Below the pieces are notes generated by a model that was given only the letters and a program-made list of their open reading frames with translations, made no database searches and was not told the DNA's origin. 40,982 bases of DNA from [Eubacterium] cellulosolvens LD2006 (GTDB taxonomy: Bacteria; Bacillota; Clostridia; Lachnospirales; Lachnospiraceae): positions 21,559-62,540 of the forward strand of contig NZ_JHXY01000022.1 of NCBI RefSeq assembly GCF_000621585.1, given 5' to 3'. Made by a program: the position numbers and the translations under genes. Positions 24,627 through 35,235 of this stretch are shown piece after piece (position 1 is the first letter of the stretch; every line of letters begins with the position of its first letter).

Positions 24627-25637
24627 TTACTGAGTGACAGATGGATCGATGCCGGCGGGGCTCTTGTTCGACGTCTGACGGAATGCTTTCTCCTGCAGAA
24701 GCCTGTTCAGGATCTTTTGCGCTGTATAAGAGAACATACATGCTCCTGAGAAGACGAGGAGCAGCGTGATGCAGTATTGTAAAACACCTGTGCCAAATCT
24801 CGTGTTTAAGCGCATTTTTTCAACCACACGGAAGATGAACATATGTGACAGGTAGATTTCCATGCTGATTCCGCTGATCAGGCGGATCGGTGTTGTCAGA
24901 GGCGCCTTGACAGAAATCGAGAACATCAGGAGGGAAGCGGTAACGGCAATCCTCGTAAAGACATTTTCTCCGAAAAAGTAATAGCAGCCGGTTGTCAGCA
25001 CAAGAACAGACAACAGATAGTACCACCGGACGTCTTCGATCGCTTCACTGTATTTGTAGATCAGTCCGCCAAGGACAAAATAGCAGGCGGAATATAGAAA
25101 GTATCTTCTGGTTAATCCAAAATACCGGTCGCATACCATATTCAGTCCAACGGCGACGAAGAGGGAGAGCCAGGCACGTCTTTTGGTTTTTATCAATACG
25201 GTAAAGAAAGGGAAGAGCAGATAAAAAATGAATACAATTCCAAGGAACCAGCCGACGCCGACCACATGCATGTCTGTCGGTAGGAATTTATGAAGAAGGG
25301 TCATTTCTGCAAAGCCTTCTGCCATAGCAAATGTGCTGAAATCATGAATCAGGTCTATTGCGATCATCAGTGTGAAGAACGGAAGGATCTTCAAATATCT
25401 CTTTTTGTAGAAGTTTTCCCAGCTGATTCTGCCGTCCATTACCTTTTGATAATATCCGCAACACAAGCCGAACGCAGAGAGAGCCATAAATACATACACG
25501 AAATCTGTGAATGAATCCAAAACTGTGTTGTAAAAAACACCGCTGATTTTGTATGTATTATTGGCCATCATATGCATGGATACGATGCCGATACAAGCAA
25601 TCACTTTTAGCCATTCTATTCCACTGTATTTCTTCAT
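24627..25637 (-). CDS. Acyltransferase 3 family membrane protein
   Basis: Predicted O-acyltransferase in the cytoplasmic membrane, 336 residues with about ten membrane segments. It has the family opening (GIEWLKVIACIGIVSMHMMA, with the catalytic-type His about residue 22), the basic loop after helix 2 (YKKRYLKILPFF) and a late YLSHMFIFRVVEK. Such proteins acetylate or succinylate surface sugars and peptidoglycan. ATG 25637 has GGGG upstream. It is a single gene; the nearest same-strand gene upstream is the Pro-rich precursor peptide, separated by a terminator and about 300 nt. A role in that cluster is possible by position but not supported by sequence. Confidence 0.85.
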   Translation of the reverse strand: MKKYSGIEWLKVIACIGIVSMHMMANNTYKISGVFYNTVLDSFTDFVYVFMALSAFGLCCGYYQKVMDGRISWENFYKKRYLKILPFFTLMIAIDLIHDFSTFAMAEGFAEMTLLHKFLPTDMHVVGVGWFLGIVFIFYLLFPFFTVLIKTKRRAWLSLFVAVGLNMVCDRYFGLTRRYFLYSACYFVLGGLIYKYSEAIEDVRWYYLLSVLVLTTGCYYFFGENVFTRIAVTASLLMFSISVKAPLTTPIRLISGISMEIYLSHMFIFRVVEKMRLNTRFGTGVLQYCITLLLVFSGACMFSYTAQKILNRLLQEKAFRQTSNKSPAGIDPSVTQ

Positions 25638-25943
25638 AACGATTACCCCATTCCAAAATGATTTTACCTCCCATAAAGTGCGGAGGGACTACTCTTTATC
25701 AAAAAACTTCTATTAATGTTAGAAAACTCACCTATATAATACACCTTTTTGTCTCCGAATACTATATTTTCGGACATTTTAAATATGATTTTTGATGTGA
25801 ATTGTTTTTGACGAGAGCTTTGGAAAGCGCTTTTTCATCTTCTGCAAGCAGTATTCGCATAGAGTTCCCCCGTTTTCACAGAATATTTTTCTTATTATAA
25901 CGCAGAAAGCTTAAGTGAAGCTAAAGGATAAAAAAACGATGAC
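25638..25943. other. AT-rich intergenic region upstream of the acyltransferase
   Basis: About 300 nt. It contains A/T-rich stretches suited to a minus-strand promoter for the acyltransferase (TATAAT-like words around 25733-25740), but I cannot fix one confidently. No gene is seen. Confidence 0.4.
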
Positions 25944-25980
25944 GCAAAAAGTGTCCAAGGCGAAATGCCATGGACACTTA
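25944..25980 (-). terminator. Terminator of the second precursor peptide gene
   Basis: Minus-strand hairpin AAGTGTCCATGGC...GCC.TGGACACTT followed by TTTTTG. The stem is the same sequence as the terminator behind the first precursor (28441-28474), evidence that the two peptide genes are duplicated cassettes. Confidence 0.8.
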
Positions 25981-26011
25981 ATAATAAACAAGATTTGTAC
26001 GATGCACAGCT

Positions 26012-26194
26012 TCAGCTGAACCTCTCAGGATCAGGGATCGGAATACCGGTGGGATCCGGAATAGGAGTACTGGTTGGATGATGCGGGCGGCGAGTTGGCC
26101 TTGGAGTGGGTGTTGATGGCCACCAGCAATTAATGGAAGCTGCTGTATTGCTAATATCAACAGATACAATTTCAGGAGTTGCCCAGTTTTTCAT
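26012..26194 (-). CDS. RiPP-like precursor peptide with Pro/Thr-rich core
   Basis: 60-residue peptide, probably ribosomally made and then modified. The N-terminal 17 residues (MKNWATPEIVSVDISNT) share W4, P7, D13-I14-S15 and T17 with the other precursor at 28511. They fit the aromatic-x-x-P...T layout of lasso-type leaders. The rest is unusual: ASINCWWPS, a run of TP/RP/HP dipeptides, then two PIPDP motifs and the ending PERFS. It has one Cys (residue 23) and no Asp or Glu near the start of the core. ATG 26194 is chosen to align with the partner (both 60 residues); AAAGGA lies 9-12 nt upstream and an ATG at 26200 is also usable. It has its own promoter and terminator, downstream of the synthetase-like gene. 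Confidence 0.7.
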   Translation of the reverse strand: MKNWATPEIVSVDISNTAASINCWWPSTPTPRPTRRPHHPTSTPIPDPTGIPIPDPERFS

Positions 26195-26250
26195 AAGCAT
26201 GTTTCCTTTCTGCAATACTTGTTGAATAATTTAAATTCGGTACGTATATC

Positions 26251-26259
26251 AGTATAGCA
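26251..26259 (-). promoter_or_regulatory. Extended -10 promoter of the second precursor
   Basis: Minus-strand TGCTATACT, with TTAACA about 18 nt further upstream as a -35. The surrounding 15-nt block ATATCAGTATAGCAG is identical to the one ahead of the first precursor (28757-28770). Confidence 0.6.
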
Positions 26260-26363
26260 GAAAATATGGGGAAATGTTAAAATCTAACCATGCAGATAGA
26301 TAAAATGTGATATGTAACAGAAAAATATGTAATATTGGTGAATTATACACAACAAAAAGCAAC

Positions 26364-28325
26364 TTATGTGACAATTATGTTACCTTTTTTCACGACAGAC
26401 GAGAGAGGATCCGAATGCAGAAAACTCATGAAGGAAAGGATGATGCAGAGATCAAGTTCCAGTGAGCGGTTTTTTTCCTCGATATGAGGATGAGCTTCGA
26501 TGTAAGCGCGGATTTCGTCAGATTTGATCCAGGACGGCGCGTCTTTTACGGCAGAAACCTCCAGTTTCCGGACACGTTCTGCATCAGCGTCCAGGCGCAC
26601 AAGCCAGTCCGCATTCTGGATTCCGACCCTGGCATGGAAGGCGGTGATCGCCTTTGGCAGGTAATCTTTCATTACTTCCCGGATGAAATACCTCTGACTT
26701 CCGTTCCACGCGAAGTACTCATAGGGCACGGAATTGCAGAAGCTGAGCAGATCCATATCCCTCGTCGGATCGCGGAGAAGAAGACCGTATTTCAGACTCA
26801 TCTTGGTATCCATCACGCCGAGATAGGAGTAGATACACTTGCTGTACAGGGAGGCGCGGTTGGTCGCTTCGTCCGACGGATAGTACTCGGTGGTGTACAT
26901 AATTCCTTCCGGCAGTCGTTTCTTCAGATCATATTCTTCGAGAATTTCCCGATCTAAAAAAGAATTCAGCAGTGACAGATCAATGATAGGGTCTTTTTTT
27001 ATCCGTTTGGCAGTGCGGTAGCTTTTCCAAAGATACCGGAAGTGTTTTTTTCTGCTGTATCCGGCTTTTTTACAGTATTCGGAATAGAGGCGGAGCCAGC
27101 GGAAAGGTCTCTTTTTCCGGTATAAATCGTAGAGAATGTCATCTGCGTAGCCGTAAGATACCGTGGAATTGCCGCACTGACCGGTCAAAAAAACACGGCA
27201 TCCCTCTCTGCAGGCCGCTTCATAGATTTCCGTCAGGCTGGATAGGTTGATAAAAGCTTTATAAGGAATCTCCAGTGTCTCTGTGATTTCCGGAATCGAG
27301 TCCGTAAAATCTCTGCCGTCCTGATCGGAAAAATGCATTTCGATATTCGGGTACATCCTTCCGATGGCCTTAACTCCTTCTGTTTCATCGGTGACTTCAT
27401 AATAGCGGGATTTGGTTTTGTAATGAGGAATATACGTATAAGAATAGAGTTGTTTTTCCTCATTTGCCAGTTTCCGCGCGGCCAGAGCGGCGACGGAAGA
27501 GGAGTCACAGCCACTGCTTAGAGCGATCCCTACTTCCCCGGAAGTGCGCAGGGCACGGTGGACGGCGATTTTATAGGTATCCAGGAACTGTTCCGCAGCG
27601 TTTTTGATGTTTCCTGAGACTTTTATATTCTCCGGTCGCCAGTATTCTGTTTTTTTTGTCCATTCCGGCCCGATGAGGACATAAGTGCCGGCTTCCAGCA
27701 TTTTTACACCGCTCCACGGAGTGTCTTCGGAGGAAAAATTCGGAAACAGGCCGGGTGAGATCAGATAATCTTTGTAGTAAAGTCTGTCCGGTTTGATTTC
27801 GGGGTGAAGCAGGCGGATCGGCGTAATCCGTGTGGAAAAAACAACACGGTTGTCGGCTTTGTAATAATAGAGACAGCGGTTCGACAACTGATCGGTACAG
27901 AGAAAGAGTTCTTCTTTTTCGGTATCGAAAACCGCAATCGAGAAGAGTCCTTTCAGATGTTTGACGAAATTATATCCCCATACTTCAAAGGCACGTTGCA
28001 ACAGTTGACCGTCGGCGATGATGGGATTGTTGTTTTGAGGGATAGCAAGATCCGGACAGGAAGTTTCCAAATCCGATATCAGTTCCTTCCGGTTGTCCAG
28101 AACGACATCGGCAGTCATCATATATCGTCCGTCGTGAAAGCTGATCGGAAGCTGTTCTGCAGATGCCTCCGGCGTAAAAAACTGAAGGCCGCAGCCCATG
28201 TAACAGCGGTCGGTTTGTATCTCATCGAAACGGTCAATTTTGCAATGTTTTTCATAATGATTGCGCATCAGCGCAGTCTGTGCCGGATCGATGGTTTTGT
28301 CTATGATTCCCCAGATAGCTGACAT
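26364..28325 (-). CDS. Asparagine-synthetase-like enzyme (lasso-cyclase type, no catalytic Cys)
   Basis: 653-residue protein with an N-terminal class II amidotransferase-like domain and a C-terminal ATP-pyrophosphatase domain. The mature start is MSAIWGIID. The Cys2 that releases ammonia in true asparagine synthetases is absent, as in lasso peptide cyclases. The pyrophosphate loop LSSGCDSSSVAAL is present near residues 267-279, so adenylation of a carboxylate is expected. Start ATG 28325 with AGGAGA 8 nt upstream; earlier in-frame codons run through a repeat. It lies between two precursor peptide genes on the same strand, with an HPr-kinase-like gene divergent. Likely job: activate a side chain or terminus of the peptide for amide bond formation. 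The substrate bond is unknown because the cores lack the usual acidic acceptor. Confidence 0.85.
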   Translation of the reverse strand: MSAIWGIIDKTIDPAQTALMRNHYEKHCKIDRFDEIQTDRCYMGCGLQFFTPEASAEQLPISFHDGRYMMTADVVLDNRKELISDLETSCPDLAIPQNNNPIIADGQLLQRAFEVWGYNFVKHLKGLFSIAVFDTEKEELFLCTDQLSNRCLYYYKADNRVVFSTRITPIRLLHPEIKPDRLYYKDYLISPGLFPNFSSEDTPWSGVKMLEAGTYVLIGPEWTKKTEYWRPENIKVSGNIKNAAEQFLDTYKIAVHRALRTSGEVGIALSSGCDSSSVAALAARKLANEEKQLYSYTYIPHYKTKSRYYEVTDETEGVKAIGRMYPNIEMHFSDQDGRDFTDSIPEITETLEIPYKAFINLSSLTEIYEAACREGCRVFLTGQCGNSTVSYGYADDILYDLYRKKRPFRWLRLYSEYCKKAGYSRKKHFRYLWKSYRTAKRIKKDPIIDLSLLNSFLDREILEEYDLKKRLPEGIMYTTEYYPSDEATNRASLYSKCIYSYLGVMDTKMSLKYGLLLRDPTRDMDLLSFCNSVPYEYFAWNGSQRYFIREVMKDYLPKAITAFHARVGIQNADWLVRLDADAERVRKLEVSAVKDAPSWIKSDEIRAYIEAHPHIEEKNRSLELDLCIILSFMSFLHSDPLSSVVKKGNIIVT

Positions 28326-28340
28326 AAGTTTTCTCCTAAT

Positions 28341-28434
28341 AAAAATGCCGCACACGGCATTCTCGCGCCGGGCCTGGAATGCGGAGCATTTACGCATCGC
28401 GCGAGTGCGCATGTAAACAGAGCGTTGTGTGTTA
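28341..28434 (-). repeat. Diverged short-body copy of the modular repeat
   Basis: On the minus strand it reads AACGCTC...ATGCGCACTCGCGCG, then an inner stem AATGC-TCC-GCATT, then GGCGCGAGAATGCCG-TGTG-CGGCATT and a short T run. Compared with 244-331 and 1539-1624 the inner and terminal stems have changed sequence but still pair. It lies between the terminator of precursor 1 and the ribosome site of the synthetase-like gene. Confidence 0.75.
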
Positions 28435-28440
28435 GCATAC

Positions 28441-28474
28441 AAAAAGTGTCCATGGCTGATCCACGGACACTTTT
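28441..28474 (-). terminator. Terminator of the first precursor peptide gene
   Basis: Minus-strand stem AAAAGTGTCCGTGG-ATCAG-CCATGGACACTTTTT. It separates the precursor from the downstream synthetase-like gene and may act as an attenuator that gives more peptide than enzyme transcript. Confidence 0.8.
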
Positions 28475-28510
28475 CAGAACGATTACAGACAAGAAACGAT
28501 AGCTTTGTAA

Positions 28511-28693
28511 TTAGCTCAGTCGATCCACTTCCACCACATCCGGTGCCTCTGTCGCGATCGGAATACTAGTGACAGATTCTTCATTCGGCCGGGTACCGTT
28601 CAATGCGCCATCCGGATATGCAAAGTTTATTTTTGAATTTTGTGTATCGGAAATATCGATTGTTAAAAACTGTGGCTCATTCCAATTCTTCAT
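28511..28693 (-). CDS. RiPP-like precursor peptide
   Basis: 60-residue peptide. The leader-like part MKNWNEPQFLTIDISDT matches the second precursor at W4, P7, D13, I14, S15 and T17. It is followed by QNSKINFAYPDG, an Asn/Glu/Thr-rich middle and the ending EVDRLS. Both precursors end in (D/E)-R-(L/F)-S; in the paeninodin lasso locus the HPr-kinase-like enzyme phosphorylates such a C-terminal Ser. If cleavage leaves Thr at position -2, the first Asp of the core is residue 10, just outside the 7-9 positions used for lasso rings. GGGGGG lies 6 nt before ATG 28693. It has its own extended -10 promoter (28761) and terminator (28441). Confidence 0.75.
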   Translation of the reverse strand: MKNWNEPQFLTIDISDTQNSKINFAYPDGALNGTRPNEESVTSIPIATEAPDVVEVDRLS

Positions 28694-28760
28694 AGGTTTC
28701 CCCCCTGTTACATAACGAAAACAATGTAAGTTACACAGACGTGTTTCTTAGATGGATATC

Positions 28761-28769
28761 AGTATAGCA
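28761..28769 (-). promoter_or_regulatory. Extended -10 promoter of the first precursor
   Basis: Minus-strand TGCTATACT inside the conserved block ATATCAGTATAGCAG, 68 nt before the ATG. No good -35 is visible, so an activator or the extended -10 alone may suffice. The remaining stretch to 28946 is AT-rich divergent promoter DNA for the kinase-like gene. Confidence 0.6.
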
Positions 28770-28946
28770 GATGTATTTTTGAGAAGGGCTAAAAATAACA
28801 AAGAAGTTAGAGAAATTGGTGATAAAATACATAATAATGATGATATTACATATAATCGTCTGAAATGTATAACAGGATCTGAAGAAATGAGTCATATATT
28901 TGAGATATTATCTGCTTGATCACATTTTTTAAAGAAGGAGTGGCTT

Positions 28947-29846
28947 ATGTACTGTTATCAAATCTATGGTTTTTTACTTTCTTCCACATTGGAGTTTCCG
29001 CAATTGTTGGAAGTTTCAAAAGAACAATCCTTAGAAGAGGATCGTGTGGATTTGTACATTCGGGAGATGAGCGAATCGGAAGACCTCTCATCCGAAGAGA
29101 AAAACGCACAGTATGGAATCGGACGTGAGCGATCCTGGCTGGTAAATCGAACAGGGGAATTTCTGATTCGAAGCGGACGGGAAATATTTTATCATGCCCA
29201 TGAGGATGCCAATATCTGGTATCTTCGGAGCTATTTGCTCGGGTTTGTGATGGCAATGCTGCTGCATCAGCGCTCAATGTTTGCTGTTCACTGCAGCGCG
29301 GTCATCCACGAGGGAGAGGCAACTCTGATTACCGGAGAGAGCGGTTCCGGAAAGTCCACTCTGACAGCCCGTTTTCTGCAACATGGGGCGAAGCTGGCGG
29401 CCGACGACATTGCGGCGGTGAAACTCACTGAGGAAGGGAGTATCTGTTATCCCGCCTTTCCGTTTCAGAAACTCGTCCGTGATGCTGCTCTTGCACAGGG
29501 ATATCAGTTGGATGAACTTCTATATATCAACGAAGTAAAGGATAAATTCCTTGTACCGATGAAGGAAAAATTCGAAGCTTCGCCTTGTCCGGTAAATCGG
29601 ATGATTTATCTGTCGCCTGCTCCGGTAAGTGAAATTCAAGTCCGGCAATTGCGGGGGATGGAGCAGTTGTTTGTGTTTCGGAACAGTCAGTTTCTGCATT
29701 CTCTTCCGGGGGAGTGGGAGCGCGAGGAGGAATTTCTTCAGCTCAGTCTGAAGACAGCGGCTTCTTTTCCGATTTATCTGGTTCTCAGACCGCAAGATGG
29801 AAGTACGGAGGCGGAGGAGACGTACCGCAGAATACGCGCGATCTGA
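28947..29846 (+). CDS. HPr-kinase-like protein (lasso-peptide kinase type)
   Basis: 299-residue protein with a P-loop domain like HPr kinase/phosphorylase but without its N-terminal sensor domain. Visible are HCSAVIHEGEA leading into the Walker A GESGSGKST (residues 130-138) and the Asp pair AADDIAAV (153-154). In Firmicutes lasso clusters homologues of this size (PadeK in the paeninodin locus) phosphorylate the C-terminal Ser of the precursor; both precursors here end in Ser. GAAGGAG precedes ATG 28947. It is divergent from precursor 1 across about 250 nt. True HPr kinase is unlikely because the length, context and missing N-terminal domain do not fit. Confidence 0.8.
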   Translation: MYCYQIYGFLLSSTLEFPQLLEVSKEQSLEEDRVDLYIREMSESEDLSSEEKNAQYGIGRERSWLVNRTGEFLIRSGREIFYHAHEDANIWYLRSYLLGFVMAMLLHQRSMFAVHCSAVIHEGEATLITGESGSGKSTLTARFLQHGAKLAADDIAAVKLTEEGSICYPAFPFQKLVRDAALAQGYQLDELLYINEVKDKFLVPMKEKFEASPCPVNRMIYLSPAPVSEIQVRQLRGMEQLFVFRNSQFLHSLPGEWEREEEFLQLSLKTAASFPIYLVLRPQDGSTEAEETYRRIRAI

Positions 29847-30337: not shown

Positions 30338-31402
30338 ATGGCAGAAAGCTACAGATCCGAACAATTGAAGAAACGACATGAGAAGCTTCAGGAACTGAAT
30401 GAGAAGCTTCCGTCCTATGTCAATGACGCCTTGCGACGAGGTCCCGGAGCAAATTGTCAGGTGAGTTCCCTGGTCAACTACGCCAGGGACTTTTATATTT
30501 TCTGCGAATATCTCTGCGCAAACAATCCGATCCTGACAGAGGTGGCTCCGAAGAATATTCCGATCAGCTTCATGGAAAAACTTACTGTGGATGACATCGA
30601 TGAATTTCTGATTGCTTCCCGGTCGTACACGACGCCAAAGGGGATTGTAAAGGACACGAGTCCGTCCAGACTGAAGGCGATCAAGTCAAGTTTGTCCGTC
30701 ATTTTTTCCTGGCTCTGTACGCATGACTATATTCCGAAGGATCCGACCGTCGGAGCCATGACGATACGAATCAAAAAGGACAAGATGATTAACACGCTGG
30801 AGATGCGTGAAGTCAAAAAGCTGGTAAATACAGTAGAAACTTCTGCGCTTTCCACCGAGAGGAAATCGAAACGCGCGAAAAAATCTGCTTACCGGGATAC
30901 GGCGATTATTCTTCTGTTTCTCAACACCGGGATTCGTATTTCCGAGCTGGTCGGTTTGAATCTGAAGGATATAGATTTTGAAGAATACTGCATTTATGTG
31001 ACCAGAAAAGGAGGCAAGCCGGATCAGGTATATTTCAACGACGAGACGGCCGCAGCCCTTGCAGACTATATCCAGCTGGAGCGGGGCACCTACGTGACAG
31101 AAGAGTGCGAGGATGCGCTCTTCATTTCTGCCTTCCACAAACGGATGGCGGTTAGAAGTGTGCAGGAGATGATCAGAAAATACAGCAGGGAGACGCTGCC
31201 GAACAAAAAGAAAGTCACCGGCCACGTCTTTCGCAAAACCTATGGTTCGCTTCTGTATGAGGCCAGTGACCTGAAAAATGTACAGGCTGTCCTGGGACAT
31301 GAATCGATCGTTACGACCTCTACCTACTATGTCAATGAGTCGAAAAACAGAAAGAAAACGTCCGGACGGAGAAATATCTACGAAGAGCGGGAGAATGAAT
31401 AA
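30338..31402 (+). CDS. Tyrosine recombinase/integrase (XerC/D-like)
   Basis: Site-specific recombinase of 354 residues. An N-terminal SAM-like core-binding domain spans about 40-145. The catalytic domain holds all active-site residues: Arg in NTGIRISELVG, Lys in TRKGGKPDQ, HxxR in GHVFRKTYGS, His in LGHES and Tyr in TSTYYVNES. There is no N-terminal arm-binding domain of the Tn916 integrase kind, and the protein ends with a basic tail. It stands alone, with no excisionase, relaxase or phage gene in sight. It may be a stranded integrase of a lost element or a Xer-like enzyme; no dif or att core was identified. ATG 30338 has a weak upstream site (GGAAGTG). Confidence 0.9.
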   Translation: MAESYRSEQLKKRHEKLQELNEKLPSYVNDALRRGPGANCQVSSLVNYARDFYIFCEYLCANNPILTEVAPKNIPISFMEKLTVDDIDEFLIASRSYTTPKGIVKDTSPSRLKAIKSSLSVIFSWLCTHDYIPKDPTVGAMTIRIKKDKMINTLEMREVKKLVNTVETSALSTERKSKRAKKSAYRDTAIILLFLNTGIRISELVGLNLKDIDFEEYCIYVTRKGGKPDQVYFNDETAAALADYIQLERGTYVTEECEDALFISAFHKRMAVRSVQEMIRKYSRETLPNKKKVTGHVFRKTYGSLLYEASDLKNVQAVLGHESIVTTSTYYVNESKNRKKTSGRRNIYEERENE

Positions 31403-32503: not shown

Positions 32504-32616
32504 TATTTTACACCCCTATCGAAAACTGTTATTAAAACGAGGAAAATTATAACTATTTATAATATCCATTACTGAGTATAATGATAATCATCAATTTATT
32601 CAAGGAGAATGAGGCG

Positions 32617-33627
32617 ATGGATAAAAACGAAAACGCGATTGTGATGAACGGAATCGTAAAAGAGTTTAAGGTACTGAATCGCAGAGAAGGATTAAAGGGA
32701 AGTTTCATGGATCTGTTTTCCAGAGACTACAGGACAGTCACGGCCGTTGATCATATATCGATAAAGATCCCGAGAGGAGAAATCGTAGGTTATTTAGGAC
32801 CCAACGGTGCAGGCAAATCAACGACCATTAAGATGATGACAGGCGTGCTGGAACCCACAGCGGGAGAAATCCTGGTTAACGGAGTTGTTCCATATAAGAA
32901 CCGGACAAGGAATTCCCAGGATATCGGTGTGGTCTTCGGACAGCGCTCCCAGCTGTGGTGGGCTTTGCCCCTGATCGAATCCCTGAAAATCTTAAAAGAC
33001 ATCTACCAGATACCGGATGAGCAGTATCGGGAGATGCTTTCCTTCTACGATTCCATCACAGATATGGAAAGTCTCCTCCATAAGCCGGTTCGGCAGATGT
33101 CACTGGGACAGAGAACATTAAGCGATATTCTGGCGGCTTTTTTACACAACCCCAAGATCGTTTTCCTCGATGAACCCACCATCGGTCTGGATGTGGCAAT
33201 GAAGGCCAGGATCCGCGAACTGATAAGGCTTCTCAATGAGAAAAAACATACGACCGTTATCCTGACGACGCACGATATGGGGGATGTAGATGCGCTCTGC
33301 AAGCGTATCGTGATCATCGATAAGGGGAAGATGCTCTATGATAATGACATGCAGCATCTAAAGAGTTTCTTCGGCTCTTACAGAACTTTGAAACTCAGGA
33401 TCGCCGGGGATTCTGTCGAACAGCATGAGATGATTAAGACAATATTCCCTGATCTTGAGACCGGTATTGACGAAGGGTGGATCTCGATCCTCATTGATGA
33501 GGAAAAGACCAGTGTTATGAAGGTGTTAAATACGCTTCAGCAGTCTATGAAGATTCGCGATATGCAGATCGAGGAGATCTCCACGGAAGACGTCATCAGG
33601 AAGATTTATGAGGGAGGTGTTCGATGA
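32617..33627 (+). CDS. ABC-2 type exporter, ATP-binding protein
   Basis: Cytoplasmic ATPase of 336 residues in the COG4586-like group. Walker A GPNGAGKST lies near residues 65-73, the signature MSLGQRTLSDI near 169 and Walker B KIVFLDEPTIGLD near 187. A C-terminal extension of about 100 residues is typical of this group. ATG 32617 with AAGGAG upstream; the frame is open a little earlier without support. It overlaps the first permease by ATGA, forming a three-gene exporter operon. Two TATAAT words (32558, 32577) precede it, but no convincing -35. The substrate is unknown; drugs or peptides are typical for this kind of system. Confidence 0.9.
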   Translation: MDKNENAIVMNGIVKEFKVLNRREGLKGSFMDLFSRDYRTVTAVDHISIKIPRGEIVGYLGPNGAGKSTTIKMMTGVLEPTAGEILVNGVVPYKNRTRNSQDIGVVFGQRSQLWWALPLIESLKILKDIYQIPDEQYREMLSFYDSITDMESLLHKPVRQMSLGQRTLSDILAAFLHNPKIVFLDEPTIGLDVAMKARIRELIRLLNEKKHTTVILTTHDMGDVDALCKRIVIIDKGKMLYDNDMQHLKSFFGSYRTLKLRIAGDSVEQHEMIKTIFPDLETGIDEGWISILIDEEKTSVMKVLNTLQQSMKIRDMQIEEISTEDVIRKIYEGGVR

Positions 33628-34427
33628 ATATCAGGAAATATACCAGCCTGCTAAGGGCAGGCATTATGGAATCCCTGCATTTCCGTCTGGCTGCACTTGT
33701 GCTGTTCTTCGGGAATCTGGTATATATAGCGATCATTTTCTATTTGTGGAAAGCAATCTATGCTTCTTCACCGACAGATGTCGTAAATGGGATGACTTTT
33801 ACGGATACATTGATCTATGTGGTGTTAGCCTCCTCGCTGTTTTCTTTTATGGAGATGTATTTCGTCTGGGAAATCGGGCGGAGTATCCAGTCAGGTAAGA
33901 TCGTTTTGGAACTGATCAAACCCATGGGCTACAGACATTATCTGTTCTGGTCATATTCAGGGTCATTGGTTACGAATTTTTTCTCGGTCTTTTTGCCCAC
34001 GTTTCTTGTCATTGAGGTTGTGACAAAAGGAGCGGTCGAGCCCGGATTCAATTTGCTGTTTTTTGTGCTCTCTGTGATAATGGGCGTTGTCATCAACTAC
34101 AATATCGATCTGTTTGTGGGAACGATCTGCCTGTATACGGAATCAATCTGGGGGATCAATATCATGAAACAGGTGATCGTCCTGTTGTTTTCGGGAGCAA
34201 CGATTCCGCTTGCGTTTTTTCCCCAGAGGCTTCAGAGGATTGCTTATTGCATGCCGTTCCAATCGATATACAATACGCCGCTTCGCATTTTGCTTATGAA
34301 GACACCGGATTATTACGAGGTTATCCAGCTGCTTTTGCTGCAACTGTTCTGGTGTGTTACACTGACAATTCTGACGAGCCTCTTCTGGCGCATTTCCATA
34401 CGTCAGATTACGGTGAACGGAGGTTGA
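33624..34427 (+). CDS. ABC-2 type exporter permease (COG4587-like)
   Basis: Membrane subunit of 267 residues with six hydrophobic segments. Starts at ATG 33624 overlapping the ATPase stop. Family features include the early SLLRAGIMESLHFR amphipathic entry helix and a loop FEMYFVWEIGR-like segment (MEMYFVWEIGRSIQSGKIVL) conserved in this permease pair. It works with the next gene as a heterodimer. Confidence 0.85.
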   Translation: MNIRKYTSLLRAGIMESLHFRLAALVLFFGNLVYIAIIFYLWKAIYASSPTDVVNGMTFTDTLIYVVLASSLFSFMEMYFVWEIGRSIQSGKIVLELIKPMGYRHYLFWSYSGSLVTNFFSVFLPTFLVIEVVTKGAVEPGFNLLFFVLSVIMGVVINYNIDLFVGTICLYTESIWGINIMKQVIVLLFSGATIPLAFFPQRLQRIAYCMPFQSIYNTPLRILLMKTPDYYEVIQLLLLQLFWCVTLTILTSLFWRISIRQITVNGG

Positions 34428-34431
34428 TAGC

Positions 34432-35235
34432 ATGAAAAGGAAAGGATTGCTGTTTTATTTACGTATCTATCGCAAGATCCTTGCGCAGGATATTAAAAGT
34501 AAGATGAGCTACCGTGCGGATTTCATTATCTCTACACTCGGCATGATACTCACGAATGTGTCAGGCTTTGTAAGCTTCTGGGTGTTGTTCCAGAATTTTT
34601 CCACGATAAACGGATGGAACTATTACGAGATGCTGTTTCTATATGGCTTTTCGCTTGTATCTATCACGCCGGTTCAGTGCTTTTTTGACAATAACTGGAG
34701 CCTTCGGATGTATGTGCGGGACGGGGATTTCATCAAGTACTGTTTTCGCCCGATCAACATGTTTTTCTATTTCCAGTCGGAGGTCTTTGACATTAAGGGA
34801 CTGGGACAGCTGGCATTCGGTATCGGCACGATCGTCTATGCCTGGCATAAAATGATGATGCCGGTCACGTTTCTTGCCGTCGTGAAACTGGTCGTTTTTC
34901 TTATCTCGGCCTCTCTTGTGATGATCGCATTGCAGAACGCAGCAGCTGCCACATGTTTTTGGATGCAGAATTCGTTCTTTATTTTGGATTTCTTTTTTAA
35001 GCTGAAGGATTATGCCAAGTACCCAATCACGATATTTGACCCGATATTCCGATTTATCTTTACTTTTGTCCTGCCGATCGCGTTCATTGCCTACTATCCG
35101 AGCCTGGTGATTCTGCGACCCGATTCGGTTCCGGTCTTGTCGTGGATATCTCCGTTTATTGGTATTCTGTTTTTCTGCTTAAGTTACAAATTCTGGATGC
35201 TGGGAGCTCGAAAATACGATGGGACCGGCTCGTAA
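34432..35235 (+). CDS. ABC-2 type exporter permease (COG3694-like)
   Basis: Second permease of 267 residues with about six membrane segments. The start RIYRKILAQDIKSKMSYRAD and the loop SLRMYVRDGDFIKYCFRPIN are characteristic of this family's second subunit. It begins 4 nt after the first permease and ends the operon. It is followed by a HAD fragment. Confidence 0.85.
   Translation: MKRKGLLFYLRIYRKILAQDIKSKMSYRADFIISTLGMILTNVSGFVSFWVLFQNFSTINGWNYYEMLFLYGFSLVSITPVQCFFDNNWSLRMYVRDGDFIKYCFRPINMFFYFQSEVFDIKGLGQLAFGIGTIVYAWHKMMMPVTFLAVVKLVVFLISASLVMIALQNAAAATCFWMQNSFFILDFFFKLKDYAKYPITIFDPIFRFIFTFVLPIAFIAYYPSLVILRPDSVPVLSWISPFIGILFFCLSYKFWMLGARKYDGTGS

Follow-up and report, generated by a model that had tools for sequence, protein, structure and literature searches.

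A probable split lasso peptide locus in Eubacterium cellulosolvens LD2006, with a second precursor that lacks a ring acceptor

The window, as the whole analysed stretch of DNA is called here, comprises 40,982 nucleotides of the rumen bacterium Eubacterium cellulosolvens LD2006 (contig C16, 21559-62540, of a 3.33-Mb genome). It holds what is likely a split lasso peptide locus of the paeninodin-like kind, with genes for an asparagine-synthetase-like macrolactam cyclase, an HprK-like kinase and two precursor peptides, A and B. Precursor B has an ordinary-looking ring sequence and, in the best reading of its sequence, would probably give one phosphorylated lasso peptide. Precursor A is a paralogue of B with no acidic residue in the part of the core where a ring would close. 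The recognition element for ribosomally synthesized and post-translationally modified peptides (RiPPs), abbreviated RRE or B1, and the leader peptidase, B2, are encoded at a second lasso locus on another contig, C2. This arrangement fits a sharing of B1 and B2 in trans with the window locus.

The precursors and their core register

Both precursors are encoded by 60-residue open reading frames (ORFs) on the minus strand that share MKNW..P, DIS.T17 and a (D/E)R(L/F)S ending, as a first, sequence-only reading of this DNA had seen. Each leader has W4xxP7 and the conserved T17. A total of 57 precursors was collected from related loci, and the spacing from the Trp to the Thr is 13 in every one of them (57/57). 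The search patterns required W/F, P/A and a later T, so that this spacing is partly built in; the position of the Asp is not. The pattern ATGAARAAYTGG(N6)CCN occurs at only two sites in the genome, those of A and B, and a reversed control gave no matches. A Pfam scan of the two precursors found no match, and the only NCBIfam hit was a TonB match to A with an E value of 0.13.

The core register was counted on 52 related precursors. Removed beforehand were A and B of the window, a spurious ORF (L098:7826-7927), precursors found twice under two locus ids, and near-copies (L100 of L092, and two L107 rows of L106); the L101 precursor was kept. With the conserved Thr at -3, an Asp or Glu falls at core positions 7-9 in 49 of the 52, while shuffled cores have a mean of 20.9 and a maximum of 32. 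With Thr at -2 the count drops to 27/52, which is inside the shuffle range, and this register was rejected. Position T+11 (eleven residues after the Thr) by itself holds Asp or Glu in 38/52 (shuffles: mean 8.1, maximum 15), and T+3 is Gly in 34 of 54 precursors. A published analysis of ruminal lasso precursors likewise places the Thr at -3, with the Asp 8-9 residues from the start of the core (PMC7533575).

Because the related precursors follow the Thr(-3) register, B is read as a Ser1...Asp9 core, beginning Ser1-Lys-Ile-Asn-Phe-Ala-Tyr-Pro-Asp9. Ring residue 1 varies in lasso peptides; Asn, for example, has been reported at position one (PMC12670498). The sequence-only reading had stated that neither core has Asp or Glu at positions 7-9, and its headline was that the precursors lack a ring acceptor. 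For B this was wrong by one residue, presumably from counting Thr17 as -2. For A it stands: there is no acid across core residues 1-27, and the first is residue 28.

An orthologue of B is found in a sister species, genome G402 (L049:4014-4181), where it adjoins a kinase that is 75% identical to the one in the window. The orthologue keeps the Phe, Tyr-Pro-Asp-Gly, Asn-Gly and the DRLS end, and the Asp at T+11 is kept in both. Nonsynonymous (dN) and synonymous (dS) divergence of this pair, 0.38 and 1.23, is similar to that of the C2 precursor pair (dN 0.41, dS 1.55).

The cyclase, the kinase and the enzymes encoded elsewhere

The cyclase matches the Pfam families Asn_synthase (E 9.6e-25) and GATase_7 (E 1.7e-13), both over the cut-off. 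Of the NCBIfam models, NF033535, for lasso cyclases, fits best (E 6.5e-54), with a score of 183.6 bits where the cut-off is 525. Sequence searches of the PDB returned asparagine synthetases and similar enzymes, and HPr kinase, as matches. Between the window cyclase and its G402 orthologue dN is 0.21 and dS 2.08. The protein starts MSAI and lacks Cys2, so the earlier remark that the synthetase has no amidotransferase Cys was correct as an observation. As an oddity it was ruled out, because this start is common among the relatives: it is present in 5/5 sequences of one alignment (A2), and most of 44 collected cyclases begin similarly.

A first scan, for which the window cyclase was the sole query, gave no relatives. 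Relatives were later counted in 11 of 397 genomes of the family (E up to 1e-60), 2 of 16 of the genus (1e-40) and 12 of 392 of the order (1e-90), with the own genome included each time, and at 22 loci of a genome collection. In a tree of 39 cyclases the window enzyme groups with cyclases that adjoin B1 and B2; it falls in a clade of 16 with an SH-aLRT value of 99, from a quick tree with no bootstrap. Left out of the tree were L039, L100 and L110 (copies of L102, L092 and L091), L101, whose cyclase is split between two frames, and L119, which is truncated. Many cores of the clade read TAH.W...DGGYIGDG..SG. Of the 19 precursors of the clade, 17 have a C-terminal Ser, compared with 5 of the 34 others (p 1e-7 by Fisher's test, without correction for relatedness; clade labels were assigned from the tree, L119, which is not in the tree, was counted outside, and the L101 precursor was left out).

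The kinase gives a weak HprK match (Hpr_kinase_C, E 7.7e-6, under the cut-off), in line with the earlier description of a divergent kinase-like P-loop protein, yet it has the complete H...GxxGxGKS...DD motif that has been reported for lasso kinases (PMC10368454). Compared with G402 its dN is 0.18, with dS saturated. Both precursors end in Ser, and from its motif the kinase probably acts on this residue by phosphorylation. In the case of paeninodin, the kinase modifies the C-terminal Ser of the precursor prior to B2 and C maturation (review, PMC9266682).

Profiles for the leader peptidase (PF13471) and for PqqD (PF05402) have no match on C16, which agrees with the earlier statement that neither an RRE nor a leader peptidase lies next to the genes. 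The whole genome has one PF13471 match (C2:202818-203111) and three PqqD matches, one of which (C2:216325-216528) is of the lasso type by its likeness to RREs adjoining B2 in other genomes. B1 and B2 are thus present at the genome level and not in the same cluster, and the split cluster suggested beforehand is supported by this search. The second lasso locus, at about C2:199-217 kb, includes a second cyclase (33% identical to that of the window), a precursor, the peptidase, an HprK fusion and genes of surface-polysaccharide type; labels are partly from reading, and those for a flippase, an NTP transferase, CotH and a tyrosine kinase were given by reading the sequences, with no profile scan. 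Its precursor has a plain Gly1...Asp9 core and is identical to one listed under E. cellulosolvens LD2006 in Table 3 of PMC7533575. The two loci are on different contigs, and their distances from the contig ends imply a separation of at least about 78 kb. The HprK-like kinase of the C2 locus is fused to a glycosyltransferase-like part (L012:4306-6423, 705 aa; the part was labelled by reading). A further RiPP-like locus (L014:674-4345) has a radical-SAM-like protein, a PqqD protein and two HprK-like proteins, all labelled by reading save PqqD.

The stretches around the 16 clade cyclases were examined for the same two enzymes. Both were found at three loci (L092, L093 and L108), in cis and with similar precursors, the RRE only at L090, the peptidase only at L033, and neither at ten; L094, on a 3.2-kb contig, was not judgeable. 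Six genomes of the clade were searched whole. In four (G000, G402, G115 and G380) both enzymes are off the contig of the cyclase, and in each case they share a contig with a second cyclase; as these are draft genomes, the true distance may still be short. G203 encodes the peptidase close to the cyclase, with the RRE on a different contig. G285 (L039/L102) has the clade cyclase and kinase and no PF13471 match; its PqqD match is weaker and again lies on a contig other than that of the cyclase.

In the proposed pathway, the C2-encoded RRE and transglutaminase-like leader peptidase would bind the leader, with its W4xxP7, and cleave between residue 19 and Ser20, placing Thr17 at -3. The window kinase would phosphorylate the C-terminal Ser60. 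The window cyclase would connect Asp28 of precursor B to the Ser20 amino group, closing a nine-residue ring with a long phosphorylated tail. For precursor A the most likely product would be a linear peptide that has lost its leader and been phosphorylated; otherwise A may be a derived copy on its way out. The sequences themselves show the gene content, the register, the location of RRE and peptidase in trans, the paralogy of A and B and what the sister species has or lacks, while the enzymatic steps, the ring, the phosphorylation, the sharing of B1 and B2 and expression are inferred from them.

The minus-strand order is precursor B, a hairpin, the cyclase, precursor A, a similar hairpin and an acyltransferase, with the kinase on the plus strand (Table 1). 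The acyltransferase adjoins the cyclase in G402 as well (67% identical); none was detected at the remaining 21 loci compared. The element TCTGCTATACTGAT upstream of each precursor, with up to one mismatch allowed, has two matches in the window where 0.02 are expected, and 0 of 100 shuffles reached two, for a pattern that was picked after it had been seen. Between the cyclase and the acyltransferase, a short stretch starting ATGCGAATACTGCTTGC is kept in both genomes (window 25860, L045:2057); by eye it resembles the first codons of a response-regulator gene. A tyrosine recombinase (Phage_integrase, Pfam) is encoded near the kinase gene at 30338-31402. Past it, about 2.7 kb beyond the kinase, are ABC-transporter-like genes (32581-35235) for one ATPase and two membrane proteins, labelled by reading, which may or may not serve in peptide export; the earlier reading had seen no ABC exporter next to the genes.

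Table 1. Features of the locus, in window coordinates
Feature	Position	Strand	Remarks
Precursor B	28511..28693	-	60 aa, MKNWNEPQFLTIDISDTQN + SKINFAYPDGALNG...VDRLS; predicted core Ser20-Ser60, predicted ring Ser1-Asp9
Precursor A	26012..26194	-	60 aa, MKNWATPEIVSVDISNTAA + SINCWWPSTPTPRPTRRPHHP...DPERFS; no Asp/Glu before core residue 28
Asparagine-synthetase-like lasso macrolactam cyclase	26364..28325	-	653 aa, start MSAIWG
HprK-like precursor kinase (predicted)	28947..29846	+	299 aa; motif HCSAV...GESGSGKS...DD
Membrane acyltransferase (Acyl_transf_3), next gene	24627..25637	-	Pfam; cluster membership uncertain
TCTGCTATACTGAT, extended -10-like element upstream of B	28758..28771	-	identical copy upstream of A; not among consensus promoter matches
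TCTGCTATACTGAT, extended -10-like element upstream of A	26248..26261	-	10-of-12 promoter match, TG before second hexamer
Hairpin after B, before cyclase	28442..28474	-	one arm pairs exactly with A hairpin, 13/13
Hairpin after A	25949..25979	-	GTGTCCA hairpin in common with B

Precursor A and its possible explanations

Precursor A aligns with B over its full length with few gaps. The alignment score from residue 21 on was reached by 1 of 2000 shuffles, and the score without the last four residues by 14 of 2000. Pro26-Ser27 of A stand opposite Pro27-Asp28 of B, and one residue (Lys21) is absent from A. In the leaders 10 of 20 residues agree, five of these despite synonymous codon differences; dN is 0.48 and dS 1.74, values that on 20 codons are suggestive only. 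A retains the leader, the upstream element, the hairpin and the C-terminal Ser. The Pro/Thr-rich tail that the sequence-only reading assigned to the second core is present; it is the tail of A, which is encoded downstream of the cyclase gene. As an oddity by itself the tail was rejected, since L033, L089, L091 and L114b have similar tails plus an acceptor. A simple frameshift of a normal core was also rejected, as the overlapping ORF (25978-26169) has no DGG or PDG core.

In G402 the A cassette (about 430 bases, window ~25930-26363, comprising upstream element, precursor A and hairpin) is absent between the cyclase and the acyltransferase: the intergenic sequence found after the A hairpin in the window starts there 6 bases past the cyclase stop. 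The earlier reading had named in advance two signs of a decayed locus as opposed to a new type: an acidic ring residue lost only here, or peptides absent from a related locus. Applied to A, both are seen, as B and its orthologue keep the Asp and A is missing from G402.

Among 54 distinct precursors, four have no acid at core 7-9: A, L108b, L101 (the locus with the split cyclase) and L038a (acid at T+8). Across T+6 to T+14, A and L108b (L108:9610-9834) alone lack an acid. L108b has an intact TAH leader end, a Gly/Asn-rich core and a DTMS end, and its locus includes a normal precursor beside it, plus a cyclase, a kinase, an RRE and a peptidase.

It is quite plausible, if short of probable, that A alone is a decaying duplicate of B without a product and that the rest of the locus works. 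This would account for a paralogue with Ser opposite the acceptor Asp and for a cassette that the sister species does not have. Decay agrees less well with the intact ORF, its ribosome-site-like stretch (seen by eye), the upstream element and hairpin shared with B, the leader residues that match B in spite of synonymous codon changes, and the occurrence of an acceptor-less second precursor at L108:9610-9834.

A could also give a linear peptide that is phosphorylated at its C-terminus and acts in the manner of the linear polyphosphorylated peptides (LPPs) of Bacilli, and this explanation, too, is a serious one that stops short of being likely. The leader and the C-terminal kinase site are kept with the acceptor lost, L108b is a second case of a Ser-ending precursor without acceptor, and paeninodin-type peptides have linear phosphorylated relatives (PMC13381572). 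A may resemble the LPPs in being leader-guided and kinase-modified with no macrolactam. LPPs differ from A, with its W4xxP7, in that their leaders carry YxxP and core Ser3 is phosphorylated; they have an RRE of their own, a signal-peptidase-like enzyme, LppS, and no cyclase in their own gene set (PMC13381572). The Gly-rich core of L108b is, by eye, also unlike that of A.

Decay of the whole locus is improbable. The missing RRE and peptidase and the acceptor-less A would here be the marks of a dead lasso cluster: B1 and B2 are not in cis, and A has lost an acceptor that B has and is absent from G402. However, dN is well below dS for the cyclase and B against G402 and is low in the kinase, where dS is saturated; ten of the 16 clade cyclases have neither enzyme in the surrounding stretch; and both enzymes are available in trans in the genome. 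A new bond type, in which the cyclase would join the N-terminus of A (or a Ser, Thr or Cys) to something other than an Asp or Glu side chain at 7-9, was among the earlier suggestions and is very improbable: A does keep its leader, adjoin an intact cyclase and align Ser27 with the acceptor of B, but the same cyclase has the normal-looking substrate B, no A orthologue was found in G402, so that no conserved alternative residue can be named, and positive evidence for such a bond is lacking.

Comparison with known systems and significance

A broader proposal can be put forward, tentatively and as a rather unlikely one. The lasso loci of this clade would yield two products from one machinery, a threaded lasso peptide phosphorylated on its tail, from the precursor with an acceptor, and a partner left uncyclised on purpose, from an acceptor-less precursor whose leader and kinase site are the same (A and, as a second case, L108:9610-9834), and the RRE and peptidase would be shared in trans between loci.

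Several points weigh against a working split locus with a maintained precursor A. The score of the cyclase is far under the curated NF033535 cut-off. Sharing of B1 and B2 is suggested by their co-presence, which is not proof, and G285, with no PF13471 match, may indicate that the peptidase is not always needed, or that the assembly is incomplete. The distance from Thr to Asp varies in the clade (T+10 or T+11), which leaves some latitude in the position of the leader cut. For B, Thr at -2 and a ring of ten residues are still conceivable; counted in this way, a Glu at T+8 in the B of G402 would be core residue 7, where the B of the window has none. The case for a maintained A depends on 20 leader codons, and the lack of A in G402 may reflect a recent gain in one lineage or a loss in the other. 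In a promoter and terminator scan of the region, counts equalled those of shuffles, and neither hairpin was among the listed terminators.

Paeninodin has Ala1 and Thr(-2). The window precursors, unlike it, have Ser at core 1 and Thr at -3. The WxxP leader, the AsnB-like cyclase, the HprK-like kinase with H-GxxGxGKS-DD, the C-terminal Ser and, in B, the ring Asp at core 9 are all features of paeninodin-type clusters (paeninodin, pseudomycoidin and ThcoK; PMC9266682). The window differs from these clusters in that its RRE and peptidase are in trans and its second precursor has no acceptor. With the ruminal lasso peptides of Butyrivibrio, Lachnospira and E. cellulosolvens LD2006 (PMC7533575) the window precursors share the kind of leader, Thr(-3) and, in B, Asp at 8-9; the cores listed there, in contrast, start with Gly. 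By eye, Table 3 of that paper contains no DGGYIGDG-type clade core and neither A nor B of the window. A search of the open-access literature on titles and abstract openings found no report of the window locus or of an acceptor-less lasso companion.

One rule for lasso mining requires PF13471 together with Asn_synthase (or the micJ25 or mcjC profiles) and then a Gx7D core (PMC13289728). Loci of this clade can slip past common rules of this sort: the window has no PF13471 in cis, and its B reads Ser-x7-Asp. If the enzymes are shared in trans, the lasso 'fragments' of rumen Lachnospiraceae would be working loci, and lasso diversity there would be undercounted. With its acceptor-less companion, the locus would offer a clear way to learn whether the lasso machinery releases linear phosphopeptides as well.

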